Notes under the pieces: generated by a model
Database searches by the model: none
Told to the model about the DNA's origin: nothing
The model's input: only the letters and a program-made list of their open reading frames with translations
Position numbers and translations under genes: made by a program
Part shown: piece by piece, positions 707 to 40,953 of the stretch
Layout: every line of letters starts with the position of its first letter
How positions within the stretch are numbered: the first letter of the stretch is position 1
Source: a virus
Length of the DNA stretch: 40,953 bases
Direction: 5' to 3' (one strand)
IMG/VR virus record: IMGVR_UViG_3300009605_007043
Coordinates: 1-40,953 of that record

Positions 707-711
707 AGAGG
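706..711 (+). promoter_or_regulatory. Ribosome binding site choosing start 717
   Basis: AAGAGG sits 5 bases before ATG 717. The earlier in-frame ATG at 666 lies inside the nuclease gene and would only add residues unlike the family N-terminus, so 717 is preferred. Confidence 0.6.
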
Positions 712-716
712 TTTAT

Positions 717-10411: not shown

Positions 10412-10761
10412 GCAATTATAAAGAAAATCGTCCATGGGGAACGTTTGAAAATTTGCTAGATAAAAGCAATTGCAAAGTAAAAGAAATTATAATACGCCCA
10501 GGTCAAGCTCCAAGTTATCAATTTCATCACAAAAGAAGTGAAATATGGATTGTGGTGCAAGGTATTGGACAGCTTAAGCTAGATGATCAACTCTCAGAAG
10601 TAACGGCAGGGGATATCATACAAGTACCCGTGGAAACAAAGCATAGAATACGAAATGTTGGAGAAGAAGATTTGGTGTTCATTGAAATTCAATTAGGCGA
10701 TTATTTTGGTGAGGATGACATCGTGAGATTAGAGGATGATTATGGTAGAAAAGAACAATAA
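10408..10761 (+). CDS. Mannose-6-phosphate isomerase type II cupin, free-standing
   Basis: 117 residues from GTG 10408 (GTGA overlap with the previous stop). RPWGTFENLL, VKEIIIRPGQ, QFHHKRSEIWIVVQG, GDIIQVPVETKHRIRN and the closing GEDDIVRLEDDYGR are the complete signature of the cupin domain that forms the C-terminal half of ManC/AlgA. The pyrophosphorylase half is absent, so this is a stand-alone isomerase-type cupin as often seen in phage and capsule clusters. Expected reaction: fructose-6-phosphate to mannose-6-phosphate, or a similar aldose-ketose step. It is the more canonical of the two cupins here. Confidence 0.85.
   Translation: MSNYKENRPWGTFENLLDKSNCKVKEIIIRPGQAPSYQFHHKRSEIWIVVQGIGQLKLDDQLSEVTAGDIIQVPVETKHRIRNVGEEDLVFIEIQLGDYFGEDDIVRLEDDYGRKEQ
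10731..10735 (+). promoter_or_regulatory. Ribosome binding site choosing start 10742
   Basis: AGAGG ends 6 bases before ATG 10742 but abuts the alternative ATG 10736, so 10742 has the workable spacing. Confidence 0.5.
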
Positions 10762-11836: not shown

Positions 11837-11838
11837 TT

Positions 11839-23600: not shown

Positions 23601-26286
23601 ATTAATGGGAATCCAAGCAGCTTTTGAAAAGGATGTAGGGTTTTATAAGCCAATTTTAACAATGGGAGGAACGAACGGTCCTTTCACAAAATTTATAGAG
23701 GCTAGTAATGAAGTTGCCGGTACAATGTCGAAGACATATGGTATTAAGTTACAATACAAAGATGGAACTCCAATTGATGAGACAACAGAAGGCGGATTAA
23801 ATCAAGTTATGGCGCAAGGTAAAATTATTGCACCAGCGGTATATTCAGCTTTAACTCAAGCCAATGTTGGTATTGGTGTGAGCGCGAACACAAGTTTAGA
23901 GTTTTTAAGAATATTTGGCGCGCCATCATCCGGAGACACTTTGTCTTTAAATATTAACTTTGGCGACACGACGGGCACGGGAGTACACAATACTTCACCT
24001 CATTCTTCCAAATTATGGTTTGGTCAAGCAAAGTCGATTGAGCATCCAATAAACTCTGATGAAAACCCGGGAGGTGTTATAAATACGATAATCAATACAT
24101 ATAATGATCAAAACAATTATGATATTTTTATTAAAAATCTTACTGGAGATTTACCTTTTTATGCAGAAGTGTTTGATCAAATGATCAAAGAACATGCGGA
24201 ATATATTACAACACAAGGTCTTTTTAAGAAAAGCGTATTTGATACGCTAAATTTAAGCAAAAAAGATCCATGTGATAAGTCATTATTTGATTTTAAACCG
24301 ATTTTTGATGCTATTCCTGAAAATATTAAATTATTACAATGCAGAATTCCTATGTCCGCTATTCCCACGGTACAAGAAATATGTCAAATAAATGCTTTTG
24401 TTGAATTAGCAGTAAAGGTTGTTATAATTAAAGAATTTTTGAGAAGCTTAATGGTGTTTTCTGTTTTCGGGATTAACAGTTTATTGTCGGATAATAACGA
24501 TTCTTTTTATTATAAATATTTAGAAGATCAAATATCTAATAAATTAGATGTCGGCGGAAAATTAACAAAACTTATTGAGAAGTTTTCGTTACCAATTTAT
24601 GCTGCGAAAGAGAAGAAAGCAATTGAAGAAGTTTCAGTTAATGATGTAAAAATAGATATTATTAGTCGTAACACTGATAGCGTTCAGTCTATGTTATATG
24701 AAAAAAATAAACACATTTTGGATAATTCAGCATTAGCTATATTGAAATCAGAATTTGAGGCAGCCGGATCGACACTTGATAAGTATAAACTCATAATACC
24801 TAGACAAGTATTGAAAAATATCATTGATAGTCCCAATGCTAGTTCGGCAGGCGCTGGGCCTTTAATCCTAGATCCCCCGGAAGTAGTTGGTGTTAGTGTT
24901 GACAATAAACAAATTATAATTGAAAGTGGATTTTATTCACAGCACCCTAGATTAACAAATGGCGGCTTTTTTATTGAACAGGGTTTTGATGTTTCGCATA
25001 AGTTTGAAGGAGATAGTAGTGTTTTTACTACGGCAGATTGGGATGATATGATTGAAGGAATGTCTGCTGACCAATCAAGTTATTTGTGGGATAAAGTTTT
25101 GCTGTACCCGCTCGGCCGCGGCATACTTGCGATGTTGTTCGGATCTGGTATTCCAAACCAGAATGATCCAGCTTATACAAAAACTTTGGCTAGTTTAACA
25201 GCTAGTAACATAAAAAGGCTTTCCAATACCGAAGGAAAGATATCTTTGAAGGCGTACGATGCTGCTTATAGCCAGCTCTTTGCAAGAGTCGCGGATAAAT
25301 ATGGCAACAAAGTTCACGTGCTTGAAACATTATTACTAGCACTTGGAATAAAATCAAACTTTGTAGATGATCTTATCGGGAACTTTCCGACTAATAATAA
25401 GCCGAATAAGTTTTTCAAAAAATATAATTTTTATAAGAGCTTAAATATATTAATTCCTGTAACCAGCAATATTATGATTCCAAAATGGACAACTTTAAAA
25501 GAATATTCTGGACCTCCGCAATATACGGCCGGCTTTTTTGAGTCTGTTTTGGATAAAAAATACTTTATACAAGAAGAAGGTGGAACTCTTTATTTTAAAC
25601 TACCTTTGTTGATTTTTTATGATCGAGAAAACTCAACAGTTTCACCCGCGGACACAGTTTCAAATGGAGAATTGTTTTTTCTACCGCCCGGGTCAACGCC
25701 GGCCGGCACAAACGATGGAACTGTTGGATCACCCGTCCGAGCTGCAGCCGATTTTAGGCCCGGGCTAAATACTAGTAATGTTAACCATATTTATACAGCT
25801 ATTAGTACTGATTCAGGATTTAAAGATTTTGTTGACGCCATACAATATAAAGATATGCTTTCATTCTTGGCTATATTAATAGCAGAAATGATAGAAAAAC
25901 AATATCCAGCTTTGCAACCGATGTTTGACGGAACTTTAAACGCAATTTATACCGCTTTAGATACTTTTTTGACTACTGCTAATAGAGACAAAGATCCGGA
26001 GTTTTATCAAAAAACACATTTTAGCACTGAAGATGCTGTTAATGGTGGTATGGATATGAATTGGGTAATGATGATCTTAGAAATGCTTTTAAAAACTTTG
26101 GCGAGCGCAACCGATCCAACTTGGAAAACTCCATGGTTTTTTCCCGGGCCCTTAACCCCAATTGGTATTATAGCTAAAATTTTGGATAGTGGGATGTTAG
26201 AAAAAGACAAGTCTAATGCCATGGAGGATGCTGCCGGGGCACTCAAAACAGATGCTATTAAATGCCCAGAGGAAAGTAATTCTTAA
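20659..26286 (+). CDS. 1875-residue tail/baseplate-region protein (unknown)
   Basis: One uninterrupted frame of 1875 residues; I recognise no family. Near 165-190 a Glu/Ala/Pro linker (AAEAAAGPPAPTPAVPPTTP) separates an N-terminal region of about 160 residues from the rest. Residues roughly 620-1000 are helix-rich with many Lys/Asp/Leu, hydrophobic stretches such as IIQAAASCLLKYLP, and scattered cysteines (CLLKYLP, CEMIF, FLCEG, CALL, CGPP). The later part mixes strands and helices (SGFYSQHPRLTNGGFFIEQG, WKTPWFFPGPLTPIG). Its place between hub and wedge genes supports a structural role, possibly baseplate periphery or tail tube. The ribosome site before ATG 20659 is weak. Confidence 0.8.
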   Translation: MTAIDRWYIKEAFTEVSYQSVLNVWLNASETDKNIDFGSDAWLIDPKSPGAAGKPPVYFQVIIRRPIAEIKALLNNDKFDLASFQNETLVNALKTEAAIIVSNNLTSLENKIEEDPAGYLTVLKQNAYVPYNFYIDPGAESAGSLISFQVLFSYRDKPEKETQAAAEAAAGPPAPTPAVPPTTPDGAVDVKLVEYNAYKFMHWGYSNGQDTLSLVEKALEKAHEANSFDNLEEKYDISFASLNSEMKSLHDLLAKKYFGVTSDARTGEYGDLGKGAHGSGIAEDAPTVDGRLKHAWERGTGDISFGSHEMFRKREVIEFGFTFPGEIPGTTMLGQTIADHLGVGASLVPSAPDDRVTKIARISGYIKPESPLQEKEEELPGVSEYFDPSDPDDPDEFWSGFFWENSGVIVMSPVGINEDLSDQIRFLLYKADEIRSFLAAGFDLESFVLQFIRPTPQKLPRPKEATKVYNKREGDPPYKSSTVLQGEILSDKQKSEIHKSVLQKYNQVGDAAFLNILKNNKTIESIEDVYKKVLNVIPLNSIIQAAASCLLKYLPNTNLKELVCDTVLGEINFEDLDGFVAMMQKHASSPEVSAVLDTIIDPTAVVSGAIGDKSPSVMSAEKNALKARLQDKFKNDFVAKDIICEMIFKAIPSAKDLLKNLQAGSMKDLSKNLPFSKKDIPNIENPAKPIFDSMEKTIGQYKGMALTGDWAIMIKEAILDFVKELIAQLVSKILEEIAFLCEGSSKADFANMNTETAARADGTSIPEYADAPVFPFNPATINDAITDPAVYPELASFVGVPTSLIRDFIDALGKLLTLSEICALLDEDSSDVNVTYLINKIWNSILSLEKFAPLKTALGNKGKLRQFFYILSTKTSKKYCIDKLNGLENTKKLLSNLCGPPSNNALIEDLKNKASDDAIKKLLEQENDIAKSLLDAMHKIKNVDVPPMFCGPDANSAKDPIFPNHQHPSVEYLNKNFMRKILMGIQAAFEKDVGFYKPILTMGGTNGPFTKFIEASNEVAGTMSKTYGIKLQYKDGTPIDETTEGGLNQVMAQGKIIAPAVYSALTQANVGIGVSANTSLEFLRIFGAPSSGDTLSLNINFGDTTGTGVHNTSPHSSKLWFGQAKSIEHPINSDENPGGVINTIINTYNDQNNYDIFIKNLTGDLPFYAEVFDQMIKEHAEYITTQGLFKKSVFDTLNLSKKDPCDKSLFDFKPIFDAIPENIKLLQCRIPMSAIPTVQEICQINAFVELAVKVVIIKEFLRSLMVFSVFGINSLLSDNNDSFYYKYLEDQISNKLDVGGKLTKLIEKFSLPIYAAKEKKAIEEVSVNDVKIDIISRNTDSVQSMLYEKNKHILDNSALAILKSEFEAAGSTLDKYKLIIPRQVLKNIIDSPNASSAGAGPLILDPPEVVGVSVDNKQIIIESGFYSQHPRLTNGGFFIEQGFDVSHKFEGDSSVFTTADWDDMIEGMSADQSSYLWDKVLLYPLGRGILAMLFGSGIPNQNDPAYTKTLASLTASNIKRLSNTEGKISLKAYDAAYSQLFARVADKYGNKVHVLETLLLALGIKSNFVDDLIGNFPTNNKPNKFFKKYNFYKSLNILIPVTSNIMIPKWTTLKEYSGPPQYTAGFFESVLDKKYFIQEEGGTLYFKLPLLIFYDRENSTVSPADTVSNGELFFLPPGSTPAGTNDGTVGSPVRAAADFRPGLNTSNVNHIYTAISTDSGFKDFVDAIQYKDMLSFLAILIAEMIEKQYPALQPMFDGTLNAIYTALDTFLTTANRDKDPEFYQKTHFSTEDAVNGGMDMNWVMMILEMLLKTLASATDPTWKTPWFFPGPLTPIGIIAKILDSGMLEKDKSNAMEDAAGALKTDAIKCPEESNS

Positions 26287-26316: not shown

Positions 26317-26715
26317 ATGGCCATTGGTTTAGATGCTAGCATGCCGTTACGTAGTGATGATGTTTTTGGTTTTTATACCTTATCTCAAACTATAAAAGAC
26401 AACACCAAGCAAAATGTTAAGATGCTGTTATTGACTGCTCCTGGCGAACGCGTGATGCTTCCTACTTATGGCGTGGGTTTAAGAAATTATTTATTTGAAA
26501 ATAATCCTGAATTTGAAATTGTGGAAAAAATACGAACTCAGATGGCTAAATATCTTCCCGATTTAAAAATAGTATCTTTAGAAGTGAGTAAAGGAACAGA
26601 GAGAGAAATTGCACACGCTGGACAACCTTATTTATTAACGGTTAATTTAATTTATTTGATCAAAGGAATCAATTTAAAAGATTCCCTTAGTCTCGTAGAG
26701 ACACAAGTTTCATAG
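26317..26715 (+). CDS. Baseplate wedge protein, gp25/W-like
   Basis: 132 residues. TIKDNTKQNVKMLLLTAPGERVMLPTYGVGLRNYLFE is the GPW/gp25 family signature: the N-terminal helix, then an L(L)xTxxGER-x-P-x-GxGL-x-x-x-x-F block. The remaining segment (IRTQMAKYLPDLKIVSLEV) completes the fold. These proteins sit in the baseplate inner ring and connect tube and sheath. AAGGGA lies about 8 bases before ATG 26317. It directly precedes the gp6/J gene, the usual order in contractile tails. Confidence 0.88.
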   Translation: MAIGLDASMPLRSDDVFGFYTLSQTIKDNTKQNVKMLLLTAPGERVMLPTYGVGLRNYLFENNPEFEIVEKIRTQMAKYLPDLKIVSLEVSKGTEREIAHAGQPYLLTVNLIYLIKGINLKDSLSLVETQVS

Positions 26716-26732
26716 AAGAGGACACAACGCTA

Positions 26733-28526
26733 ATGGCAGAGAAAAAACCAGCAATCAATTACACTAGTAGAGAATTTGCTACTATTAAAAACGATTTAGT
26801 GAATTATGCTAAAAGATATTATCCAGAAAAATTTAGAGATTTTTCCGCTAACTCTTTTGGTTCGTTAATGTTGGATACGGTTTCATATGTGGGCGATATT
26901 TTATCTTTTTATCTAGATTATCAAGTTAATGAGTCTTTTCTTTCCACGGCTATAGAGTATAATAATGTCTTAAAATTAGCTAGACAGTTTGGATATCAAG
27001 CGGCTTTATCTCCATCTTCATATGGGATATTAACATGTTTTGTCTTAATTCCTTCAACGAACGGTACTCCTAATTTTGATTACGCTCCCTTCTTAAAAAG
27101 AGGTAGTAAGTTCAAAACAGCCGGCGGCAATATATTTACTTTAGTTGAAGATATTAACTTTAAAGATGAGGACAAAAATGAAATTGTAGTGGGCGATGTT
27201 GATAGTACCACCGGCGCGCCATTAACTTACGCAGTGCGGGCCCGCGGACAAGCGGTGTCTGGAGAATTAGCAGTACTAAATGTTTCTCTTGGAAATTACA
27301 CTAGATTTAGACAAGTAGAAATCCCCGGTAAACATATAACAGAAGTTGTTTCAGTGATAGATTCTGAAGGTAATAATTTTTATGAGGTCGATTATTTAAC
27401 TCAAAACACAGTATATGTTCCTTTGGTTAATCGAGGTGTTGATAAAAAAACTGTTGCAAACATTTTAAAACCAATTGCCGTACCACGAAGATACACAGTT
27501 ATAAAAGAAAAGAATAAAGTGCTTTTGCAGTTTGGCGCAGGAACTGATGAAAACGAATCGCGCGTATTAGATCCTAGTAACGTAGCCATAGAGCAGCATG
27601 GAAAACAATATATTACTGATGATTCTTTTGATCCCGCTGCATTAATAAAAACTGATCGATTGGGCGTGAGTCCTAGTAATACAATATTAAAAGTAATATA
27701 CAGAATTAATACGACAGCAAACACCAATGCTTCTATTAATACTATTACAGCAGTTTCAGATCCTTTGTTTGATTTTCAAAGCCAATCTAGCTTGAATGCC
27801 GCTTCGGTTGTAACAGTGCGCAATAGTTTGGAAGTTACAAATGAAGAATCTTTTCAAGGAAGCAATCCATTTCCCGTGGCTGATGAAATAAAACAAAGAG
27901 CAATGGGTGTTTATTCGATGCAAAATCGCATAGTCACTAAAGATGATTTCATTGCTGCAGCTTATACAATGCCAGCCAATTTTGGAACTATTAAAAAAGT
28001 AAACGTACTACAAGATACGGATAGTTTTAATCAACGAAATATTAATTTGTATGTTATTTCTCAGGATACTGTAGGAAAGTTAGCAAAAACCAACAATACA
28101 ATAAAAAATAATTTAAAAACTTATTTAACAAGATTGAAAATGATTAATGATTCAATTGATATTTTAGATGCTAATATAATTAATTTGCAAATTAGTTTTA
28201 AAATCGTAGCATTTCCAAATATTAATAAATATAGCGCTTTAGATTCAGCTAAGCAAGCGCTTGAATTGTTCTTTGCTGATAGAAAAGATTATGAAATTGG
28301 AGAGCCATTTGGTATTACCGACATATTTACTGTTTTGAAAAACACCCCAGCGGTATTAGACGTAGTGGATGTTGATGTGATAGTAAAATCGGGCGGCGAT
28401 TATGCCGATTCTAATTTTATTGCTAATAACAACAAAATAGCTGATGGAAGAAAAATATTCTGCCCTCTTAATTCCGTATTTGAAATTAAATATCCTAATG
28501 CAGATTTAGTAGGAACGGTTATATAA
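26733..28526 (+). CDS. Baseplate wedge protein, gp6/J-like
   Basis: 597 residues, near the 660 of T4 gp6. NYTSREFATIKNDLVNYAKRYYPE and ANSFGSLMLDTVSYVGDILSFYLDYQVNESFLSTA are the opening helices of baseplate J/gp6 proteins. The later EIKQRAMGVYSMQNRIVTKDDFIAAAY is the second characteristic block, followed by NVLQDTDSFNQRNINLYV and an FGITDIFTVLKNTPAVLDV C-terminal segment. This protein forms the wedge core that links around the hub. GAGG lies about 11 bases before the start, and the stop overlaps the next start (TAATG). Confidence 0.9.
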   Translation: MAEKKPAINYTSREFATIKNDLVNYAKRYYPEKFRDFSANSFGSLMLDTVSYVGDILSFYLDYQVNESFLSTAIEYNNVLKLARQFGYQAALSPSSYGILTCFVLIPSTNGTPNFDYAPFLKRGSKFKTAGGNIFTLVEDINFKDEDKNEIVVGDVDSTTGAPLTYAVRARGQAVSGELAVLNVSLGNYTRFRQVEIPGKHITEVVSVIDSEGNNFYEVDYLTQNTVYVPLVNRGVDKKTVANILKPIAVPRRYTVIKEKNKVLLQFGAGTDENESRVLDPSNVAIEQHGKQYITDDSFDPAALIKTDRLGVSPSNTILKVIYRINTTANTNASINTITAVSDPLFDFQSQSSLNAASVVTVRNSLEVTNEESFQGSNPFPVADEIKQRAMGVYSMQNRIVTKDDFIAAAYTMPANFGTIKKVNVLQDTDSFNQRNINLYVISQDTVGKLAKTNNTIKNNLKTYLTRLKMINDSIDILDANIINLQISFKIVAFPNINKYSALDSAKQALELFFADRKDYEIGEPFGITDIFTVLKNTPAVLDVVDVDVIVKSGGDYADSNFIANNNKIADGRKIFCPLNSVFEIKYPNADLVGTVI

Positions 28527-30397
28527 TGAGTGTTAAAAGATATTACGCAACAAAAGACAATACCATAACCAACGCTTATAAAGCTAATTTGAATACTCGC
28601 GGCGTTAGTGGCAACATGGGTCAATCAGACATTTTAGAAGTTTTTAGTATATATGGCCAAGTTAGTTCTAGTAGTGGATTATCTTCCGAATTAGCAAGAA
28701 CACTCATTCAATTTGATACAAGTCAAATAACTACAGATAGAGCTGCTGGAACAATTCCGGCGTCTGGAAGTGTAAACTTCTTTTTAAAAATGTACGATGC
28801 TGAACACACCCAAACCACTCCAAAAGATTTTACTCTTGTGGTTAATGCGATGTCTCAATCTTGGCAAGAAGGTCTGGGTTTAGACATGGAAGATTATACT
28901 GATTTAGATGAATCAAATTGGTTATATGCATCAGATGTGGATATTGCAGCCACTGCTTCTATAAAAATAGATGATATTACCCCGCTACCATTCACATTGA
29001 CTTTAAGTGGTACGAATAATAATTATCTTTTTACAGCTGTGGCTTCTGGACCGGGAGAAAACGAATGGGAGGATGGCGCCAATGTAAATGAGTGTGCTAG
29101 CAACCTTAAAGATATTATTAACGAATCAGCAAGCGCCGATTTTGTTGCAGCCGCTAGCGGACTCGGCGCTAATTATGTAAAAGTTTCTGCAGTCGCAGCA
29201 GGAACATCTGGTAATTTAAATGCACTTACCAGTAGCAATACTGATGTTTTATCCTTTGATGAAGTATCCGGAGATAATACCCTTTTACAAGGAGGCAATG
29301 ATTACACCCCATGGACAACAGAAGGTGGAGATTATACTACAGGATCTGATGCTCAACCATTAGAATATACTTTTACACAATCTTTTAGCACCGGTTTTGA
29401 GAATTTAGATCTAGATGTTAGCCATTTAGTTGAAGATTGGATTTCTGAAACTGCTCCAGTAGAAAATAATTATGGCTTCGGAATACAGCTTACGAGCACT
29501 TTAGAACCTGCTATAGCTGAAGAGTCTTATTATACTAAAATGTTTTTTGCAAGAGATTCACAGTATTTTCTTAAGAGACCTGTATTAGAAGCAAGATGGG
29601 ATAGCAGCAAAAAAGATAATAGAGACAGCTTTTATTTAAGCTCTTCGTTAGTTCCCGCAGGGGATAACTTGATGAAGCTTTATCTTTATAATATTGTAAG
29701 AGGTAATTTAACAAACATTCCTGCTATTGGGACTCGTGATATGCTTGTGAGCATTTACAGCGCGAGTCAAGCAGGAGTACCTGCAGGTAGCAAACTTTAT
29801 TCACCAATTGGAGGAGGAGTAGTGGCTACTGGTGATACAAACATTACTGCTTCATATGTTGAAACTGGTATTTATTCGTGTTCGTTTGCATATGTTTCTT
29901 CTAGCATTACAAAGATTATTGATATTTGGCACAGCGGCAGTGGTGGAGGAGATTCTTCTGTACAGTATCATACTGGATCTGCTATTACAATAAAAACGTT
30001 TGATAGCGAAGATTACAACTTTGATCAAAATTATGTATCTAAAATCACCAACTTAAAAGATATCTATTCTACTCGCGAAACGGCTAGGTTTAGATTATTT
30101 GTTAGAAAAAAAGATTGGTCTCCGACTATTTATACTGTATCGTCAAATGCTATAGAAACTTCAATCATTCAAGATGCTTATTATCAAGTGATGAGAGTTT
30201 CTGACGATTTTAAAGTAATACCTTTTGGTACCGGATCTTTAAACTATACGCGTTTATCTTATGATGCTAGTGGTAGCTATTTTGATTTACGAATGAATTT
30301 GTTTGATACAGATACTGTTTATGAAATGAGCTTTACTTATTTAATAAATGGTAACTACGTAGAACAGCCTGAAAAATTTAGATTTAGAGTTGAGTAA
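28526..30397 (+). CDS. DNRLRE-like structural protein with inserted domain
   Basis: 623 residues. DNTITNAYKANLNTRG, MGQSDILEVFSIYG and SELARTLIQFD resemble the opening of DNRLRE-type adhesive domains, and LDLDVSHLVEDWI with YGFGIQL continues that beta-sandwich at about 290-340. Residues about 137-262 (from ASIKIDDITPLPFTLTL to NTLLQGGND) interrupt it with a small Ala/Ser-rich domain. The C-terminal 250 residues are strand-rich (SFYLSSSLVPAGDN, TARFRLFVRKKDWSPTIYTV, EMSFTYLINGNYVEQPEKF). Its position between gp6/J and the giant LamG protein suggests a baseplate or fibre-connecting part. Beta-sandwich architecture is well supported; role inferred. Confidence 0.7.
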   Translation: MSVKRYYATKDNTITNAYKANLNTRGVSGNMGQSDILEVFSIYGQVSSSSGLSSELARTLIQFDTSQITTDRAAGTIPASGSVNFFLKMYDAEHTQTTPKDFTLVVNAMSQSWQEGLGLDMEDYTDLDESNWLYASDVDIAATASIKIDDITPLPFTLTLSGTNNNYLFTAVASGPGENEWEDGANVNECASNLKDIINESASADFVAAASGLGANYVKVSAVAAGTSGNLNALTSSNTDVLSFDEVSGDNTLLQGGNDYTPWTTEGGDYTTGSDAQPLEYTFTQSFSTGFENLDLDVSHLVEDWISETAPVENNYGFGIQLTSTLEPAIAEESYYTKMFFARDSQYFLKRPVLEARWDSSKKDNRDSFYLSSSLVPAGDNLMKLYLYNIVRGNLTNIPAIGTRDMLVSIYSASQAGVPAGSKLYSPIGGGVVATGDTNITASYVETGIYSCSFAYVSSSITKIIDIWHSGSGGGDSSVQYHTGSAITIKTFDSEDYNFDQNYVSKITNLKDIYSTRETARFRLFVRKKDWSPTIYTVSSNAIETSIIQDAYYQVMRVSDDFKVIPFGTGSLNYTRLSYDASGSYFDLRMNLFDTDTVYEMSFTYLINGNYVEQPEKFRFRVE

Positions 30398-30400
30398 AAC

Positions 30401-33400
30401 ATGTCATTAAAAGATTTATTTAAAGGAGTCAAATCTCAATATCTTTCGTCCACTTCGTTAAATGATTTAACGGGCAATCTAGAATCTGTAGACTACATTA
30501 AGTTTTATTTAGAAAACAAAAAAAGATTTATACCTTTAGTAGATTATTCAGAGCCCAAGAACTTTGCGCGTTTTGGTTCAGCAGAAAAATATTATTACGA
30601 TAGTATTAGAAGAACTTTTCAAACTTATCCTTATGATGGCTCTAAAAAAGAGAAAATACTTTGGGAACTTTCTTCTTCTCATTTAGATCTTTATCTTTTT
30701 GAAAATGGTTATCCACGAACTACGGGATATGTTACATTTACATCGGAAAGTTTAACGGCTACTGCTACTTCTACAAATAAAGATTATTGGGGATCATACG
30801 GCGCAGCTGGAACAGCTTCTTATGAATATATTTTTGTTAATGGTGGCCCTCATGAGGGTTCCGGTAAAAGGGTGTATCTTGATCCGGATACTGGCGAAGC
30901 TAAATATCGAAAAAATGCAAACATTTGGGATACCTCAAAAAACAGAGAGTGCAACCTTAAAATTGGCGGTACCGACGGAAACACAGTAGAATTTTGGCTT
31001 AAAAAAGCCGCCTTCGATACTGACGCTACTGAAAAAGAAGTAATTTTTGATATTCATACGACTTCTTCGATTTCTTCAAGCGCTGATTATGGCCGTTTAA
31101 GAGTTGAAATGACTGGCTCAAAAGGATCCGGCGGTACCGGAGGCGCGCCGTTTCTTATAACATATATGTCGGGCACCGCTGGTTTTGCAAATCAAGCTAT
31201 CGGAAGTTCAATAACAAGCGCTTCTATCGCAGATGATAGTTGGCATCATTACACTTTTAGATTCAAAAACACCGGTAGTAATGTAGTTGCTGATTTGTTC
31301 ATCGATGGCGCTCATAATCACCGCGTTACAGCTGGTACAACTGTCGATTATGTAAGTGGAACCATTGTTGGAACATTGGCTGCGCTAGCTACTTACCCTT
31401 CTGGTACTGAAGCCGGCGCACCACAAGCTTATAAAGGCTGGGGTAAGCTTTCTGGCTCTTTAGACGAGTTCAGATACTGGAAGACTTGGAGATCATCTGA
31501 GCAAATTCAAACACGCTGGTTTGATCAAGTTGGAGGAGGTACTAATACTGATGAGGCTAATACTCATTTAGGAGTATATTATAAATTTAATGAAGGCATT
31601 GCATTGGCCTCTTCTATAGATTCCACTGTTTTGGACTATTCCGGCCGCGTGAGCAATGGTACATGGACCGGATATAATTCGAATTATTCGCGCAACACAG
31701 GGTCAGCTATTGATGACGCTAATGCCACTATGACTAACTTTACCGGCAGTGAGTTTCGCGATCCTATTTTATATGCAACTCAGCCAGACGTCGCATCTTT
31801 TTTAACAAACCAACGAAATAAAGGTAAACTGTACGATTATACAAACCCTTCTAACTTATACTATAGTATTCCTACATGGATCTTAGAAGAACATGACGCA
31901 AACAATCCGAATGATGAAGGGTTGATAGGCAATTCTCTTTGGAACTTAATTCAAATTTTAAGTAGCTATTTTGATGATGTGGCCGCGCAGATAAAGTCGA
32001 TACCCAGCATAACTCAGCCTGATTATCGTTCAGTTGTTAGTGGAACTATTGCTGCTAAGCCTATTCCTTTTATGGATAGAGCTTTAGAAGGAAAAGGGTT
32101 CGTTTCTCCGGAAATATTCTCAGGATTAGATGCTTTAGAGGCATTAGAAAATAGAGATAATAACAGCTTATATACTCAAAAGATGTATGATGTTAAAAAC
32201 ACTATTTATCAAAACATATATAATAACCTGCAGTATATTTATAAATCAAAAGGTACAGAAAAATCATTTAGAAATTTAGTCCGTTGTTTTGGAATTGACG
32301 ATGAAATATATAAATTTAACGTTTACAGTAATAATGTTGAATATATTTTTAGAAATAATTATAGGTCGGTCGCTGAAAAGCATAAATTAATTAATTTTAA
32401 TACCATAGCAAATAGCGATGGTACCATATATCAATATTCCAGTAGTTTAAACCCCAACTCTACAAAAACATATATTGCAGCTAGTGAAAATTATGATAGT
32501 TTTACTTCGCCTGAAGCTAGTTTACCTTTTAGTGTAGAGGCAAATGTAATTTTCCCCTTTAGAGGGCAGAGTTACGGAGATGCATCATTGTTGCTTCCTA
32601 ATGCCACAAAGAGAGAAAACAATTACCCAATTATGCAAACTGCTAGTTTGTTTGGGCTACATACCGCCATAGACACCGATCCGGGCGAAACCACATGGGC
32701 TGATAACGATTATGCCAACTTTGTTGTAAAAGCAATTAAACCGGAACTTTATACAAATAAAGCTTATTTTGCTCTTACGGGCACAGCCGGCGGTTTTATT
32801 CATCCTGAACTTATTTCTTCGGAATATAATGATGTATATAATGATACTAATTGGAGCTTTGGTGTATCTTTGTACCCTCAAAAATATCTCAATGCTAATC
32901 AAATTCCAGGCACTTCTGGATCAGCACATGGCACATATGTAGTTGAATTTTCGGGAATTCAAAGCATTTTGGATGTAACGATTAATGAATTTACTGTAAG
33001 TGGTACTATGGACGGCGATCAAGCTATTAAATTTATGGCGTCTCCAAAAAGATTATTTGCCGGCGCTCACAGAACTAATTTTACCGGTTCATTATTAAAC
33101 AGCAGTGAGGTTAAATTTAACAATCTGAAAGTATGGCAAAATAAATTAAGCATTTCAGATTTAAAAGTGCATTCAGCAGATCCAAACAATTATGGTTTAG
33201 CCGATCCAGCACAGAACGCTTATTTGTTTAACTCTTCGATAAATAAAGTATATGTTCCCAACAAAGAAACACTATTATTGTATTGGAACTTCGATAATGT
33301 AACTGGTTCTGACGCTAGCGGAGAATTTATTGTAGAGGATCTTACTTCGGGTTCTATTACTCAAACCCCAAGATATGGGTGGCTATCTGAAATTAACAAG

Positions 33401-36400
33401 CAACAATATCTTGGAAAAGCGTATGAATTTGAAGCATCAAGTACAGAGGTGTCTGTTTTAGATGAAATCATAACAGCTAGACCAAACTTACCAGAAGTTA
33501 TTGGTAGTGGCGATATGATTACGGTGATGCAAAATGATGATATATATTTTACTAGAGATAAGAGACCTACTTTCTTTGACTTATATGTAGAAAAAAGTTT
33601 ATATCAAAATGTTTCTCAAGAAATGTTAAAATTTATGGCCGGCGTTGTAGATTTTAACAATCTTATTGGCCATCCAGTTGATATTTATCGTCATGAATAT
33701 AAGTCATTGGGAATATTAAGAGAGTCATTTTTCCAAAGATTAAAAAGCGCTCCGGACGTTGATAAATATATTGAATATTTTAAGTGGTTTGATATTGCTA
33801 TTGCTTCAATGATTCAAAAAATAGCTCCTATGTCCTCGGGATTAGATGAGAGACCTTTGAGAACCATTATTGAATCTCACATATTAGAAAGAAGCAAATA
33901 TCAGAACAAATTCCCAACATACGAATTTAAGCAATCTGACCCTGAAGGTAGTTTACTTGGCGTTAATGAACTGCTCTATGATTGGGAATTTGGAAAAGCT
34001 TCGTTATATAACGACGATAGGATTCTTTCCGCGCCAGGTCCATATTCATTATTGTTTAATGGTGTTAACTCTGAGGTCCAGATAACTGATAGCGATCTAG
34101 ATTATACACCTGATGATGATGATCGATCTTGGTCTATTTGGTTTAAAGGCGGCGGTAATGCCCTTAATCATCTATTTGTACATGGAGAAACGGTTGCCTC
34201 TGTTGCTATATACGTTACTTCCGCCGGCGTCCTTTATTTCAATGATCTAGATGGCAGCTATGTTTCTTCAGGCGCGACTCTGGATTTAGATCAGTGGAAC
34301 AATGTAACTGTTACCATAGATAAGTCAGGCGGCGTGGGCGATGGGGTCCAGAAGGTATATGTTAATGGCGTACTCGTGGTCACGGACGCTTTTGTCACTA
34401 CAGGCGCTGCAACCGGTCAATTGACTATTGGCGCTACCGCGTTCTCCGGGCATAAATTGAAGGGTAATGCGGATTGGTTTACTTATTGGACAAAACTCCT
34501 TTCTGGCGATGAGGTAGAAGAATTATATAATAATGGAAAACTTTTCAATTTAGAAGATTTCTCGGCATATTCTGATATTAAACTTTGGTGGAAATTGGGT
34601 GACGGACCTGGTGGACTCGCTGATGATTTTTCTGGAAACGATTATAATGGTACTCTTTTTGGAGTAACCCTCCGGTCGACAATTGTACCAGATTATGAAG
34701 GTTCATCTGCAAGAAAAAATAATTGCCTTTGGCTTGATGAAAGAGCATCAAGGACTGGCCAACTTATAACTTCTGGCGACGCCGCGGTCGATGCTGATCG
34801 CGATACTATTTTAACAGTTTTAAATAATCAGAATAATGCTACTGCTCCTAATTTAAGTGGCTCAGATGGCGCCTATGAAGGATCGACATTTGCTATTAGA
34901 AGGTTCGCTCGACCATATAAATTATCTGCAGCTGCACAAAAAGAAATTCATGGCGGTAGCAATACTTATGAAAATAAAAAAATAGGTTTTTGGGATGCTA
35001 TTCGCCAACGTCCCACTCCTGACGGCGCCAGTGAAGGCGCTATTATCGCTATAGAGCCTACTGATTCTTCGTTAGAAAGCTTTAAAAGTTGCGATGATGA
35101 TTCAGCTTTAAGACTGGGAAAAAGAAAATATTCTTTTTCAGCTCAAACTAGTATTGACGGCAATTCATTTACTATTAATGATAAATATAAAGGTGATTTG
35201 ATATTACCATTTAGTCTTTATAGTTCATCGATAAACAATGATGGATCACGACGAGGCGGTGAAGAGTGGAAGCTTTCAGATTTTCAAGCTAATTTAGACA
35301 TTACTAATTTACATAGTGACGCTTATGGCCCATTTAATGATGTTCCAATGCAAGGACCGTTTACTGAAAAATATGTTGGGGGCCGGCCATATAGACACGT
35401 ATTTAGTACTTTTACTAGGCGATGGCCCACTGATGCTCCTCAAGGGGAAAGATTAGAAGGCTGGATGTTGAACGCTAGTTCTGGAAAATTAGTCCTTGTT
35501 AATCCGGATACCCCCAGTTCACCTTATTTTCGTAATGAAATAGCTAAACGCCCCGTTAATATTGCGAATATTCAACAAACGACCGGAGCGGTTACTGCGG
35601 ATTATATTAACCCTCTAAGTGCAACTATTATTGGTAATTACTCCAAGGGTTACGAGATAGTGATGACTAATGGCCGCTCTATTAATAATAGATATATGGC
35701 GGAAGCTGATGGAATAGTTACAGGAACCGTAACTTATTCTCCAATAGTCTCTGGCTCTGTTGAATTCCCACTCCCCAGAAGAGATTTAACTGGTAGCAAT
35801 AGTTTTGTTATCGTTAATAGGTTCTCGTCACCTGGCGATCCAGCAACAATGGGCGAAGGTATGTTAGACCTCGCAGCTGCCGAATATAGCGTTTATAATG
35901 CTCTTCCTTGGCGTAATTTAAGCGTAAGAGAACCTTTGGATGAACTTTATTCTGATCATTGTAAACAATTTGGGTATTTTAGTGATGCATTCAACTCATC
36001 TAGTTGGGCCCAAGCGATACGTTCTGGTCTCAAAGCTGTTGACTCTTATCCCGGTACAAGTGGATCAGTTAACGAAAATTATTATTATAAAGCCGGCACT
36101 TATGCTGATGCTACAGCCTCATTCCACAAGATTAATAGAAATGGAAGATTACAGCCTTATCTTTCTGAATATTCTACATTTGAGTATACAAATACGCACG
36201 TGTTGTCACTTGATGGAGAAGATAATTATGCTAATATAGGCAGCCCCGAAACTTGGGATGCTATTATTGGAAATGATACTGCGGGGGGGTCTAATGAAAC
36301 ATACACTCTTTCTGCTTGGATTTGGGCTACGTCATTAGGCCATAGCGGAGGAGGTAGTTATCCGACAGTGTTTGATTTTGGGACTCAAGATATTTACTTT

Positions 36401-39400
36401 TTAATCGCTGCGACCGGCCGGTTATATTTCGGCCAGAAGTTTACCGGAGCGACGGGGATCTGGAAGACTGACGAAGACACTATTGAAACGGAGACATGGT
36501 ACCACATCGCTGTTACTTATGACGCAACTGATCCCGATAATGATCCTAAAATATATGTTAATGGCGTATCAGCAACAGCGGCTGTACATGGTAGCCGAGC
36601 GACAGGGGACAATTTCGGCATTGCAGCTACTGATTGTTTTATCGGCCAACGTGCGGACGGATCGTTTAATTTTAGTGGTTATATCGATGAACCGAGCATA
36701 TGGAATGGCGTTTTAACCGATTTAGAAATATTAGAAATTTATAATGGCTATTATCCGCCAGATTTTATTACAAGAAGAGGCGTGGGTAATTTAAGTAACC
36801 ATTCAGCAGTTAGTAAGCTTGTTTCTTGGTGGAGAGTCGATACTTCGCCTGGAACTACTGAATTAACAGATGACCATGGTTCAAATGATGGTACACTAGA
36901 AGACTCTGCAATGCGCGTCAGTGCAACGGGAGACGCTGAGTTGCAGCCGGTAAAAACGTATGTTCCGCTGATTCATAAGCGATACGACAACTGGTTTGTC
37001 CAACACCAAATCCCACAAACCGATCTTCAATATGCTTGGATTACAGCAAGTGTTATAAATGGCTATACCGGTCCTGCAGCTTATGGTTTTGAGAAGCCTG
37101 ATTTTAGCAATGCTAGTTTAGCTTCAACAGACCTTACGTTTGTAAGCGCGAGTTCTATTAAAAGCTTTGTGGTGCCTGGGCTGTACCCGCCGGGGGAGGG
37201 CCGTTTTTTTGCGAGTTCCGAGCCGGTGCCCGCCTTGTACCAATATCGCATCCCGGTGGACTTTGTTGGTTTAAACACTCTTGTATATGAACCTATTACA
37301 TCTAGCACAAATGTGTTGGGATATCCGAGTTTAGAAGTGCCCGCCATCTCTACCGCGTTTTATTCTTATAGAGGTGGTTTAGTAAATTATTTATCATATA
37401 ACGGTTCTATAAACATCCCGCAGAAATCAACATATATATTAAATGGACTACTCTTACACCGCCAAGGCCCATATGGTTGGCCTTCTTGGAAGCAAGTTCG
37501 TGGAGAGCAGCACCCAATTGTAAGAGCACATAGACAAGAAAATAGACTAAGTTATTTAGATCGAAAGGTCGTCTACTTTGACGACGGCACTTCGATAATA
37601 AACACTAGACAAATTGCTTCTGCAATTGAGCCTCCGATAACAAGCAAATTTAAGCCTTTGCGCCATAATTTAAAAGTAAAACTTAACGTCTCGCCGGCGC
37701 CCGGCACACCAGAAGCCATTGAAGCTGCGATTGCGGAGGCGCAGGGGATTTTCGCCCCCTCCCAGGATGTGAGCATTGATCATACGTATTTAAACAATCT
37801 AGCATATTTTACTGATCATGCTAGCGATGGCGTTAATTTAGATCAAAAGATTTTATCTAATCGCAACAAACCAATTACACAGCAAACACTGGATGCTATA
37901 AATTATTATTTATTGAGTGGAAAAGTCCCCAAACGTTTTAACCCTATAGCGGGATTTAGGTCTTTGCAAATAAAAGAAACCATTTACCCTAAAGGCCAAT
38001 ACACTTATTTATCCGGAACGCGCGCACGACTTTTATATCAAAATAATTATTGGAGGGATACAAGAGAAAATAGAAAATTGGATAGAGGATCTTTGGTAAA
38101 CGATTTAAATAATCTTCAACCGTTTTTGCCTAGTCCCTTAGATGCTACATTGTTAGAAGCAGGAATGGGCATTTCGGCTAGTATTTGGCCTTTAGATGCT
38201 AGGTATAATTTTAGCACTGCTAGCCCCGGGAGAATTAAATCGGGAACTTTAGAAGGTCAGGCCGATATTGGTGATCTGGCCGATAGTTTACCAATTGTAT
38301 CCGGAACGAGTGATATTGCTGGTATATTACAAAATGCTTCTATTCCTTATAGTTGCGATGTTTTTGTTAAACCGGCGCTCTTGCCTGGTTTTTCGCTTGG
38401 AGGAACACTTCTTCCTCAATATAATAGAAGAATTGCCGGTGTTATCCCACAAGATACTACTCATGAATATAAGTTTGGGGACACTAAGTGGGAAGCTGCA
38501 GATCAATCAGGAATTAAACCATTTTATGATACATATGCAGATTATGTCGATGATATAAAAAGAGTTGGCAAAGATCATGGAATATTGCCTGAGTTTAGAA
38601 TATCAGAACACATGGACTTTTATTTAAATCAAAAAGGCGGCAATTTTTTAGCTAAGAATACCGCTTCGTTTACCATAACCGGCTCAGTAGTTTCTTCTAG
38701 CGCTCAAGGATCAACCTTTTATAAGAGGTATTCTCATACTGATTTTTTAAAGACATTTAGAATCGTTAATGGTGATTATCAACACATCGGCCGATCAAAT
38801 AAAATAACTTTATCTGTTGATGCTTTAATTAAATTTTTACCTTATGATGGATTTTATCCCGCTGATAGAACAGTTCAATTAGCTAAATTATTTTGGGAAA
38901 GTTATACTGGCAGCATTGCTGTGACTGGTACGCTGTACCCTCTCAATTGCGAGCTGCCCTGTCCCACCACGAAGCAGCACAAGATCGGGGATGGGGTACC
39001 CCCCGAGTCGGCCAATTGGATTAATCCTGTTTGGAAATCACTTTTTGCCCCCGGCATATTATATAACAGTATTAAATCGGGCCTGGCGGTTGATTATCCG
39101 GTACATACTTCAAATAATGATGGGTTACCTATACAGATCAGTGGGTCTCCCAATCAGAGAAATGGCTATGGATTCTTAGAAGATATTCCCCGAATAGCAA
39201 CATATTTTGATTATAGAGTGCCTTTTGAAGCCTTAGCAAACCCTGAAGGTTATATTGGCGGGGTGTCTATTATTAATAATGAGCCTCACCCCAGCGCAAG
39301 TTTTGATTTAACAGCTTCTCTCGCAACTTCTGGAAAAAATAATTATAAACTAGCTATGAATAACTTTTTAGCGTCTACGATTCAGTTTTTCAAGACCAAC

Positions 39401-40953
39401 GGTAAAATGACCACATTAATTTCCAGACCTCTGGAACAAGCATTTGATACTGATAAAGAATATGTGATGCGAATTGTTTGTCACGCCCACGGCCCATATA
39501 CGCGGTTTGCGGATTTAGCTAACTATTTTACAGCCGATGGCCTCACTGAGAGATGGTGCTCTGCGTCATACATTTTTAACCCACCGAGTCTGGTGATGTA
39601 TGCTCAAACGGGAACTTTGACAGGAGATTTATATTCTGTTCCGCCTTCACAGGCTGATTATTATGGTTCGGCTTTTGGTCCTCCTATACAAGATGAGAGT
39701 ATGGCGATCAAATTCCCCGAAGGCCTGGGCAACCGCGGCGCTTTGTTTGGAAGCGCTTCGTATGGAGCATTTACACCGCCTTATTATGATGGATATAGTC
39801 ATATAGAACTAACTTATAAGCCCACATTTGCTGAGCAATCATTAGAGGAAATTATGACTGAGTTAAGAGCGACCGCGACCTACTTCAGATTTCCGCAGAC
39901 GATGGATTACCTGCCCGATGAACCCGGGTCGGTGATCAAGAGCTTGATGAATATTACTGCTAGTATAAATTGGGACACAGTAATAAAACAAAAAGAAGTA
40001 ACTTTTGATGCAACTGGTAATCCTGTTTTCGTCGGAGGCGATTCCGCCGGGGACACGCATGTTTGGGTTATTCAGCCAAAATGGGAAACTCCTGTTCTTA
40101 ATTTTAAAGACGTCGAAGTTACTTTACCTCTTACTGGGTCTGGTTCGGTGGCGAGAGGAATGTGGCATCAGTATGGCTCAATTCCAAAAAGCTCTGATGA
40201 AGGCATTTTCTTACAAATTCAAGATTTAGATCCAACTGAATATGGAGCTAACAATCCTCACTTAACAGCTTCTTTAGCAGATATATTAGGATTCAAAAAA
40301 GAGCCTGTTGCTATTGGGAAAATAGCAGAAACAAAAACTATTTCAGAAGCAATTGTTGCTATACCATTTTATAAAAGACAAGGGAAACAGATTTTCTTTA
40401 CTATTCCATCGCAAACTATAGAGCTTGCTGAAGCTGTTATTAATAAGACTAGTGATTCAGCCCTGTACAAGAACATAATTGCTAACCATCCAGATTTAAA
40501 GCCAGATCTGGCAGTGATAGAGATGGTTAAAAAAATGAAAAAATTTGTTATTCCGCCAAGATATGACTTTATATCTAATAAGCCGGCGCCAACCAATAGT
40601 AATAAGCCATTTGCTATGTTTATTTTTGACTTTAATGTTGATTTAGATCAACAAGATTTAGCAAATATTTGGCAGAATTTAAGTCCGGATATAGCTACAA
40701 CAGCTCAAATACGAAACGCTTCTCTTCCGGCTAGTATTTTTGCTGCTAGTGATGAGAAAGGTACCGGCATGATGGAGTCAGATCTGTTCCAGCTGGGCGC
40801 AGACAATGTTCAGTGGTTGGTGTTTAAGGCAAAACAGCGCGCCGCATATAATTACTTTGCAATGACTGCTGATTCAGCCCATGATACGAACTTTACATTT
40901 GGTTTTGACATCGGTGATCCAGTTGGAGAAAAAAACTTTACACCAAATTATAG
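30401..40953 (+). CDS. Giant tail/baseplate protein with gpI-like region and LamG domains (3' end outside window)
   Basis: ATG 30401 opens a frame with no stop through the window edge, at least 3,517 codons, read codon by codon; the final TAG at 40951 is in another frame. Residues about 184-424: LamG/concanavalin-like domain (DDSWHHYTFRFK, GSLDEFRYWK). About 487-646: region like phage tail protein I (IPTWILEEHD, YIYKSKGTEKSFRNLVRCFG, K617-G618-T619). About 705-925: a further LamG-like region. About 1216-1425 and 1934-2167: clear LamG domains, each followed by a W-W-[KR] segment. The last 1,350 residues hold many short aromatic motifs (GPYGWPSWKQVR, NYWRDTRENR, PEFRISEH, SGLAVDYP, PPRYDF, DLANIWQNL) that I recall from giant proteins of uncultured marine phages. 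Likely an extracellular wedge-plus-receptor-binding protein. The ribosome site is weak. Confidence 0.9.
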   Translation, partial: MSLKDLFKGVKSQYLSSTSLNDLTGNLESVDYIKFYLENKKRFIPLVDYSEPKNFARFGSAEKYYYDSIRRTFQTYPYDGSKKEKILWELSSSHLDLYLFENGYPRTTGYVTFTSESLTATATSTNKDYWGSYGAAGTASYEYIFVNGGPHEGSGKRVYLDPDTGEAKYRKNANIWDTSKNRECNLKIGGTDGNTVEFWLKKAAFDTDATEKEVIFDIHTTSSISSSADYGRLRVEMTGSKGSGGTGGAPFLITYMSGTAGFANQAIGSSITSASIADDSWHHYTFRFKNTGSNVVADLFIDGAHNHRVTAGTTVDYVSGTIVGTLAALATYPSGTEAGAPQAYKGWGKLSGSLDEFRYWKTWRSSEQIQTRWFDQVGGGTNTDEANTHLGVYYKFNEGIALASSIDSTVLDYSGRVSNGTWTGYNSNYSRNTGSAIDDANATMTNFTGSEFRDPILYATQPDVASFLTNQRNKGKLYDYTNPSNLYYSIPTWILEEHDANNPNDEGLIGNSLWNLIQILSSYFDDVAAQIKSIPSITQPDYRSVVSGTIAAKPIPFMDRALEGKGFVSPEIFSGLDALEALENRDNNSLYTQKMYDVKNTIYQNIYNNLQYIYKSKGTEKSFRNLVRCFGIDDEIYKFNVYSNNVEYIFRNNYRSVAEKHKLINFNTIANSDGTIYQYSSSLNPNSTKTYIAASENYDSFTSPEASLPFSVEANVIFPFRGQSYGDASLLLPNATKRENNYPIMQTASLFGLHTAIDTDPGETTWADNDYANFVVKAIKPELYTNKAYFALTGTAGGFIHPELISSEYNDVYNDTNWSFGVSLYPQKYLNANQIPGTSGSAHGTYVVEFSGIQSILDVTINEFTVSGTMDGDQAIKFMASPKRLFAGAHRTNFTGSLLNSSEVKFNNLKVWQNKLSISDLKVHSADPNNYGLADPAQNAYLFNSSINKVYVPNKETLLLYWNFDNVTGSDASGEFIVEDLTSGSITQTPRYGWLSEINKQQYLGKAYEFEASSTEVSVLDEIITARPNLPEVIGSGDMITVMQNDDIYFTRDKRPTFFDLYVEKSLYQNVSQEMLKFMAGVVDFNNLIGHPVDIYRHEYKSLGILRESFFQRLKSAPDVDKYIEYFKWFDIAIASMIQKIAPMSSGLDERPLRTIIESHILERSKYQNKFPTYEFKQSDPEGSLLGVNELLYDWEFGKASLYNDDRILSAPGPYSLLFNGVNSEVQITDSDLDYTPDDDDRSWSIWFKGGGNALNHLFVHGETVASVAIYVTSAGVLYFNDLDGSYVSSGATLDLDQWNNVTVTIDKSGGVGDGVQKVYVNGVLVVTDAFVTTGAATGQLTIGATAFSGHKLKGNADWFTYWTKLLSGDEVEELYNNGKLFNLEDFSAYSDIKLWWKLGDGPGGLADDFSGNDYNGTLFGVTLRSTIVPDYEGSSARKNNCLWLDERASRTGQLITSGDAAVDADRDTILTVLNNQNNATAPNLSGSDGAYEGSTFAIRRFARPYKLSAAAQKEIHGGSNTYENKKIGFWDAIRQRPTPDGASEGAIIAIEPTDSSLESFKSCDDDSALRLGKRKYSFSAQTSIDGNSFTINDKYKGDLILPFSLYSSSINNDGSRRGGEEWKLSDFQANLDITNLHSDAYGPFNDVPMQGPFTEKYVGGRPYRHVFSTFTRRWPTDAPQGERLEGWMLNASSGKLVLVNPDTPSSPYFRNEIAKRPVNIANIQQTTGAVTADYINPLSATIIGNYSKGYEIVMTNGRSINNRYMAEADGIVTGTVTYSPIVSGSVEFPLPRRDLTGSNSFVIVNRFSSPGDPATMGEGMLDLAAAEYSVYNALPWRNLSVREPLDELYSDHCKQFGYFSDAFNSSSWAQAIRSGLKAVDSYPGTSGSVNENYYYKAGTYADATASFHKINRNGRLQPYLSEYSTFEYTNTHVLSLDGEDNYANIGSPETWDAIIGNDTAGGSNETYTLSAWIWATSLGHSGGGSYPTVFDFGTQDIYFLIAATGRLYFGQKFTGATGIWKTDEDTIETETWYHIAVTYDATDPDNDPKIYVNGVSATAAVHGSRATGDNFGIAATDCFIGQRADGSFNFSGYIDEPSIWNGVLTDLEILEIYNGYYPPDFITRRGVGNLSNHSAVSKLVSWWRVDTSPGTTELTDDHGSNDGTLEDSAMRVSATGDAELQPVKTYVPLIHKRYDNWFVQHQIPQTDLQYAWITASVINGYTGPAAYGFEKPDFSNASLASTDLTFVSASSIKSFVVPGLYPPGEGRFFASSEPVPALYQYRIPVDFVGLNTLVYEPITSSTNVLGYPSLEVPAISTAFYSYRGGLVNYLSYNGSINIPQKSTYILNGLLLHRQGPYGWPSWKQVRGEQHPIVRAHRQENRLSYLDRKVVYFDDGTSIINTRQIASAIEPPITSKFKPLRHNLKVKLNVSPAPGTPEAIEAAIAEAQGIFAPSQDVSIDHTYLNNLAYFTDHASDGVNLDQKILSNRNKPITQQTLDAINYYLLSGKVPKRFNPIAGFRSLQIKETIYPKGQYTYLSGTRARLLYQNNYWRDTRENRKLDRGSLVNDLNNLQPFLPSPLDATLLEAGMGISASIWPLDARYNFSTASPGRIKSGTLEGQADIGDLADSLPIVSGTSDIAGILQNASIPYSCDVFVKPALLPGFSLGGTLLPQYNRRIAGVIPQDTTHEYKFGDTKWEAADQSGIKPFYDTYADYVDDIKRVGKDHGILPEFRISEHMDFYLNQKGGNFLAKNTASFTITGSVVSSSAQGSTFYKRYSHTDFLKTFRIVNGDYQHIGRSNKITLSVDALIKFLPYDGFYPADRTVQLAKLFWESYTGSIAVTGTLYPLNCELPCPTTKQHKIGDGVPPESANWINPVWKSLFAPGILYNSIKSGLAVDYPVHTSNNDGLPIQISGSPNQRNGYGFLEDIPRIATYFDYRVPFEALANPEGYIGGVSIINNEPHPSASFDLTASLATSGKNNYKLAMNNFLASTIQFFKTNGKMTTLISRPLEQAFDTDKEYVMRIVCHAHGPYTRFADLANYFTADGLTERWCSASYIFNPPSLVMYAQTGTLTGDLYSVPPSQADYYGSAFGPPIQDESMAIKFPEGLGNRGALFGSASYGAFTPPYYDGYSHIELTYKPTFAEQSLEEIMTELRATATYFRFPQTMDYLPDEPGSVIKSLMNITASINWDTVIKQKEVTFDATGNPVFVGGDSAGDTHVWVIQPKWETPVLNFKDVEVTLPLTGSGSVARGMWHQYGSIPKSSDEGIFLQIQDLDPTEYGANNPHLTASLADILGFKKEPVAIGKIAETKTISEAIVAIPFYKRQGKQIFFTIPSQTIELAEAVINKTSDSALYKNIIANHPDLKPDLAVIEMVKKMKKFVIPPRYDFISNKPAPTNSNKPFAMFIFDFNVDLDQQDLANIWQNLSPDIATTAQIRNASLPASIFAASDEKGTGMMESDLFQLGADNVQWLVFKAKQRAAYNYFAMTADSAHDTNFTFGFDIGDPVGEKNFTPNY

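Follow-up and report, generated by a model that had tools for sequence, protein, structure and literature searches.

A giant tail gene of an uncultured phage probably encodes a gp7/gpI-type wedge protein with inserted LamG domains and a fused second protein

The third protein of the baseplate wedge is known from several systems: gp7 of T4, gpI of P2, and TssG are described as equivalent (PMC6300606), and gp17 of phage XM1 is reported as a gp7 orthologue (PMC10457771). Published accounts of T4, TssFG, and XM1 give a wedge made of two gp6-type chains and one gp7-type chain (PMC6300606, PMC10457771, PMC3004832). Alg12 of AlgoCIS has a gp7-like part that is reported to lie laterally on the baseplate and to bind fibers, and that is called a hotspot of re-engineering (PMC8894135), while in cyanophage A-1(L) the long fiber is described as held by a wedge insertion domain (PMC10966104). 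At the level of titles and the opening lines of abstracts, we found no description of a gp7-type protein with LamG domains.

Here, we analyzed a tail locus in a stretch of 40,953 nucleotides (IMG/VR record IMGVR_UViG_3300009605_007043; hereafter, the window) from an uncultured phage that is probably marine, judging from the look of its relatives' contigs and from their names. We consider it likely that the largest gene of this locus encodes the third wedge protein (i.e., the counterpart of T4 gp7, P2 gpI, and TssG), with LamG inserts and a fused second protein that most likely provide contacts with the host surface or with fibers. This reading is based on gene order, homology between families, remote homology of a helix with a KGT motif, LamG domains, and the fusion or fission of the gene among relatives.

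Gene neighborhood of the giant

The giant gene (30401..40951; plus strand, as are all features of this gene and its three upstream neighbors given below) reaches the window's end after 3,517 aa without a stop, as called with ORF ends left open. When viral contigs were scanned with its residues 450-680, 418 candidate stretches were returned, of which 414 were relatives and 80 were kept; in all 80, the segment is encoded inside a long ORF. The complete ORFs among the relatives (n = 40) range from 884 to 3871 aa, with a median of 3124 aa, and the longest ORF of any relative has 4326 aa.

Upstream of the giant, we identified a gp25/W-like sheath initiator (26317..26715; PF04965, E 5e-11), a gp6/J-like wedge protein (26733..28526; phrog_10646 and phrog_219, "baseplate wedge subunit," E 2e-20 and 4e-19), and a protein of 623 aa, here called X (28526..30397), with no family match in Pfam or PHROGs. 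The original prediction that W and J precede the giant is therefore correct, but they do not directly adjoin it, since X lies between J/gp6 and the giant. All three genes precede the giant in every testable relative (69 of 69), and gp6 is upstream in 18/18 and 22/22 testable loci of two sister families (described below); loci were counted as testable if they had at least 4.2 kb of upstream sequence, which excluded 11 of 80, 3 of 21, and 3 of 25 loci, respectively.

X comes immediately after gp6, the position that I has relative to J in P2, and no testable relative lacks it. X itself could therefore be the real gpI/gp7, with the giant as an accessory wedge protein comparable to T4 gp8 or gp10. 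We regard this as very improbable, as X belongs to no family and reaches only E 0.26 against the Tail_P2_I profile, and as two genes occupy its position in both sister phages.

Other genes of the window also deserve mention. A tblastn search places a 1,875-aa protein without a family match (20659-26286) ahead of the giant in 20 of the 69 testable relatives, and a 524-aa protein encoded just before the tail genes (18071-19645) ends in a glycosyl hydrolase 25 (lysozyme-type) domain (E 2.8e-17). Sugar-metabolism genes lie within 666-13395, namely two group-1 glycosyltransferases (666-1994 and 1967-3256) and a nucleotidyltransferase-kinase fusion (11839-13395); the presence of a glycan cluster near a lectin-rich tail gene is curious.

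The putative wedge core and its sister families

Nucleotides 31861-32340 had been predicted to encode a domain resembling tail protein I. The segment is real, but these coordinates are two bases out of frame and run into many stops; in the true frame, residues 487-646 correspond to 31859-32338, with KGT at residue 617 (base 32249). The three peptides quoted in the prediction are all present in the giant's translation. Two of them, "IPTWILEE" and "LWNLIQILSSYFDDV," are conserved within the family but yield no significant alignment to Tail_P2_I, which leaves the gpI/gp7 match claimed for them unproven. Furthermore, the segment is not a whole domain but only roughly two thirds of one, the remainder being found at residues about 1072-1190.

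Judging from sequence profiles, the wedge module is thus larger than predicted and interrupted, with a LamG domain before the half that contains KGT and another insert before the second half, beyond which the module resumes; this interruption had been missed. We propose that the core consists of three pieces. The first would be the N-terminal conserved segment (residues 43-110; 30527..30730), presumably a helical hairpin, whose residues 43-63 align with sequence immediately preceding the wedge half in the sister families (E 8e-4; reached by 0 of 30 shuffles). The KGT half (residues 455-665; 31763..32395) includes the KGT helix (residues 612-638; 32234..32314), which aligns to Tail_P2_I, TIGR02242, and T4 gp7. 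The second half (residues 1072-1190; 33614..33970; ...FKWFD...APMSS...HILERSK) was recognized by hhalign to the family of phage immuto (95.3%, E 2.3e-8).

Counterparts were found in two named phages, Flavobacterium phage immuto (gp109, YP_010114574.1, 1,265 aa) and Microcystis phage Mel-JY01 (WWT39511.1, 1,336 aa), both of which are annotated as "hypothetical," and in an uncultured phage of 484 kb (an ORF of 1,404 aa). A model from the A1 alignment, for which 47 of 81 sequences were kept (without L015, which has a long insert, and without near-identical or short relatives), matched one protein per phage, with E values of 2.7e-15 (immuto), 1.2e-8 (Mel-JY01), and 8.4e-7 (484-kb phage). In profile comparisons (profile n1 held 48 of the 81 sequences), the window profile aligned with the immuto family at 98.2% (E 3.9e-14) and with Mel-JY01 and the 484-kb phage at 97.8% each, the latter alignments spanning both halves.

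The immuto and Mel-JY01 families were extended from viral contigs to 21 and 25 loci. Their alignment displays two conserved halves, the first of which ends in the KGT helix and the second in ...FD..F..I...PAR....G....P..L.RSK.K; the spacer between them is a short stretch in immuto and a domain of several hundred residues in Mel-JY01. The immuto family has both wedge halves in common with the window, as well as gp25-gp6 upstream in the same order, but its protein is shorter, with no LamG domain before the KGT half, a short linker between the halves, and no fused second protein. The Mel-JY01 family likewise has both halves, a homologous insert between them, and X-like and gp6-like genes upstream; its shorter protein differs in having neither the first LamG domain nor the fused C-terminal part.

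Within the window family, residues 1-1200 are common to 32-40 of the 40 complete relatives, whereas residues 1201-1440 and about 1900-2190 are aligned in only 4-10 of them. When the giant was divided into 71 bins of 50 residues, the most conserved was that containing KGT (601-650; mean 0.81 over 23 sequences). Overall, conservation is highest in the wedge core and lowest in the second and third LamG inserts.

Remote homology to Tail_P2_I, TIGR02242, and T4 gp7

Scans of the giant against Pfam and PHROGs revealed no wedge family; they returned LamG only, plus a weak unnamed PHROG over a LamG domain. Tail_P2_I (PF09684) had no match in the window record at E ≤ 10, and its curated cut-off of 20.6 bits was not reached in the window, the sister families, or the 484-kb phage (best score among the sisters, one of 20 members, E 0.087; 484-kb phage, 12.7 bits). 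Similarly, no sequence attained the curated cut-off of TIGR02242, "phage tail protein domain" (51.85 bits), and the window member itself had no match. This was the commonest NCBIfam match, found in 17 of 47 members of the window family (best E 0.012), with weak matches in 7 of 20 sister members (best E 0.041).

For profile-profile comparisons, we assembled a Tail_P2_I set of 32 sequences from genome searches, as the P2 gpI relatives from viral contigs were near-identical. The window, immuto, Mel-JY01, and 484-kb profiles were each compared with four Tail_P2_I profiles, and all 16 best alignments fell on KGT, with E values from 0.14 to 2.3e-4. In each of six tests, with queries from the window family, from both sister families, and from a merged profile, the observed score was reached by none of 30 shuffled or reversed Tail_P2_I controls. 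Given also that 79 of 80 relatives keep KGT, the likeness of this helix to Tail_P2_I, as originally proposed, goes beyond chance. Against a combined Tail_P2_I and TIGR02242 profile of 49 rows (L333 was removed as mistranslated, and L298, L299, and L301 as duplicates), Mel-JY01 gave 62% (E 7e-5) and the window segment alone E 0.0022, compared with E values of at least 0.26 for eight other window proteins. When the target profile was restricted to ten long sequences of the TIGR02242 type, the first-half profiles reached E 0.11-0.61.

The hhalign probability against Tail_P2_I never exceeded 62% in any single test, and only the KGT helix aligns, while the helices before it do not. The second half reached E 0.17 or worse, and the C-terminal KPxRxH strand region of Tail_P2_I was at the expected place in some comparisons, again at E 0.17 or worse. 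In P2, the I protein has its KGT helix in register with that of the giant and W-J genes upstream, but it is an uninterrupted protein of 176 aa, whereas the giant stays below the cut-offs and is preceded by the additional gene X.

T4 gp7 (1,032 aa) also comes after gp6, which it directly adjoins, unlike the giant. The best match of the window and merged profiles in T4 gp7 was its KGI helix (733-751), which aligns with the KGT helix of the giant at E 0.015-0.036, a weak link; the merged profile scored 25.7, compared with a maximum of 22.1 among 30 shuffles, and the immuto profile alone did not pick this helix. For comparison, T4 gp7 and P2 gpI, whose relationship is accepted, miss each other by the same method (E 0.14-0.95), and the T4 genome has no match with PF09684 or TIGR02242 at E ≤ 10. 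Across 12 whole phage records searched at E ≤ 10, PF09684 matched in one and TIGR02242 in three; all four matches were weak and inside the giant-type ORF, and no other Tail-I-like protein was found in these records.

AlphaFold models were poor both for window residues 440-690 (47 sequences; pLDDT 60.5, pTM 0.28) and for the uninterrupted immuto module (pLDDT 37.4), and Foldseek returned a single meaningless PDB match for the former (E 7.6). Among the window and sister profiles searched against the PDB, A1 gave eight matches, the best to IcmE/DotG repeats (E 0.0072), which are unrelated, and A2 gave none; the second insert and gp6 profiles gave none of note.

Collectively, these data suggest that the window protein is probably homologous to gp7/gpI, though it falls short of the cut-offs for membership of PF09684 and TIGR02242, and that gene order and remote sequence homology partly support the predicted gpI/gp7-type wedge module. 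One might instead see in the giant a peripheral adhesin or tail-fiber protein that merely follows the wedge genes, with a KGT helix due to chance or convergence, as LamG domains and a length of more than 3,500 aa are typical of adhesins and as no curated wedge model passes and a single helix aligns. In that case, however, one would have to account for a core that is the most conserved part of the protein while LamG inserts 2 and 3 are the least, for a gene order kept in all 69 testable relatives, for a KGT score that no shuffle reaches, for short forms of 1228-1270 aa that retain the core without the C-terminal part, and for the lack of any other Tail-I-like protein in the 12 records. We therefore find the adhesin alternative unlikely.

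LamG domains, the fused second protein, and possible host contact

The first LamG domain (residues 187-373; 30959..31519) was detected by hhalign against the LamG copies from beyond residue 1150 (97.3%, E 1.7e-11); alone against PF13385, it reaches E 5.8e-5 and 23.7 bits, i.e., below the cut-off of 27.6 bits. All 80 relatives have it in this position, and it is most simply seen as an insert into the core, because the sequence that residues 43-63 match in immuto and Mel-JY01 lies only a short way ahead of the KGT half. LamG domains 2 (residues 1236-1378; 34106..34534; E 4.2e-13, 50.1 bits) and 3 (residues 1961-2116; 36281..36748; E 1.8e-18, 67.5 bits) both exceed the PF13385 cut-off and are variable inserts located in the giant's two variable stretches. 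Certain relatives have further copies: L015 carries an extra LamG domain directly after the KGT half (residues 689-861), and L069 has three LamG stretches before it (residues 174-614).

The second insert (residues 670-1060; 32408..33580) is homologous to the insert of the Mel-JY01 family (hhalign E 1.3e-4) and is presumably of beta type. Its assignment to LamG, guessed from a motif, failed (E 0.4), and PF13385 has no match at 685-1060. In three relatives, the gene is split inside this insert (L028 at 11404-11423, L029 at the same place, and L073 at 9364-9489), which would place the two wedge halves on separate chains; the split may reflect an assembly error, a frameshift, or real fission.

The original prediction had also missed that the giant includes a fused protein, which some relatives encode as a separate gene. 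In L044 and L071, a core gene of 1,228-1,235 aa stands before an independent ORF (2,123-2,242 aa), which matches the remainder of the giant in the window, and the same split arrangement probably holds for L047 and L072, which are near copies of the same lengths. Given this separation, the giant is a fusion of the wedge protein with a second protein of ~2,100 aa. In L068, a core of 1,270 aa is followed by genes that resemble, by eye, tail sheath and tube.

Two parts of the fused protein are conserved. Over most of residues 1440-1900 (34718..36100), 16-32 of 40 relatives align, and the counterpart of this segment is near the start of the separate ORF in L044 and L071. In the C-terminal part (residues 2200-3500; 36998..40900), 24-30 of 40 relatives align, as counted over residues 2200-3450 in the complete ones; this part has no Pfam or PHROG match of note, and no homologues were found at E 0.1 in the immuto, Mel-JY01, 484-kb, and T4 loci. 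Downstream of the giant, several relatives have a conserved gene of about 350-410 aa (L007, 19349-20428; L002, 18189; L010, 18952), the copies being alike by eye at the start; that of L007 has no PHROG match.

Alg12 of AlgoCIS, reported to be a gp6-gp7 fusion (PMC8894135), resembles the giant in having an enlarged, fused gp7-like module at the outer side of the wedge, but its fusion partner is gp6 rather than LamG domains and a large C-terminal protein. By analogy, the window protein fits the pattern of Alg12 and A-1(L), namely a constant core with inserted and appended domains that would face outward.

As regards the giant's fold, gp6 binding, copy number, and host binding, we propose the following arrangement. 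The three core pieces (43-110, 455-665, and 1072-1190) would fold together, and each folded core would bind two chains of the gp6-like protein whose gene lies upstream, beside gp25, with this unit repeated six times around the baseplate; binding to two gp6 copies is proposed because (gp6)2-gp7 and (TssF)2-TssG complexes are known. LamG domain 1 and the putatively beta-type second insert would project from the wedge rim, the ~2,100-aa second protein would be fused behind the core, and further LamG domains would be swapped in and out at the joints. The LamG domains and the fused protein most likely carry contacts with the host surface or with fibers, so that the wedge that helps to trigger sheath contraction would also carry part of the recognition equipment. 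The original proposal of a wedge component and surface-binding modules in one chain is thus supported as far as a gpI/gp7-type module with LamG domains (PF13385) is concerned; that these domains bind the host surface, we infer.

The inserts may also have a purely structural role within a gp7-type wedge protein, making rim contacts or holding separate fibers without binding the host. This is compatible with the core of our preferred explanation, from which it differs only in the role of the inserts, and we regard it as a serious, albeit less favored, possibility. T4 gp7 and the gp7-like part of Alg12 are described as holding fiber proteins, not cells (PMC3004832, PMC8894135), and the fixed place of LamG domain 1 in all relatives suits such a role, whereas LamG domains 2 and 3 vary between relatives, as host-contact modules do.

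Going beyond the preferred explanation of a wedge protein with LamG inserts and a fused second protein, we tentatively postulate, as a somewhat less probable idea still, that, among these phages, the protein which couples sheath contraction to contact with the receptor is also one of the main proteins making that contact. If so, six chains per baseplate would bind the cell surface through their LamG domains and transmit the movement directly to gp6 and gp25. Separate fiber-anchoring proteins would then not be needed, and exchange of LamG domains at fixed joints would alter host recognition while leaving the core untouched.

The wedge reading would identify the gp7/gpI component so far missing from a large set of unannotated phages, most of them uncultured (relatives on 414 contig stretches), as well as from the two cultured phages immuto and Mel-JY01, in which it can be tested. 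It would also explain the position of the largest gene of these phages and present the gp7-type wedge as a platform for inserted lectin-type domains, such that the tail-anchoring part of the baseplate may contact the host cell as well.
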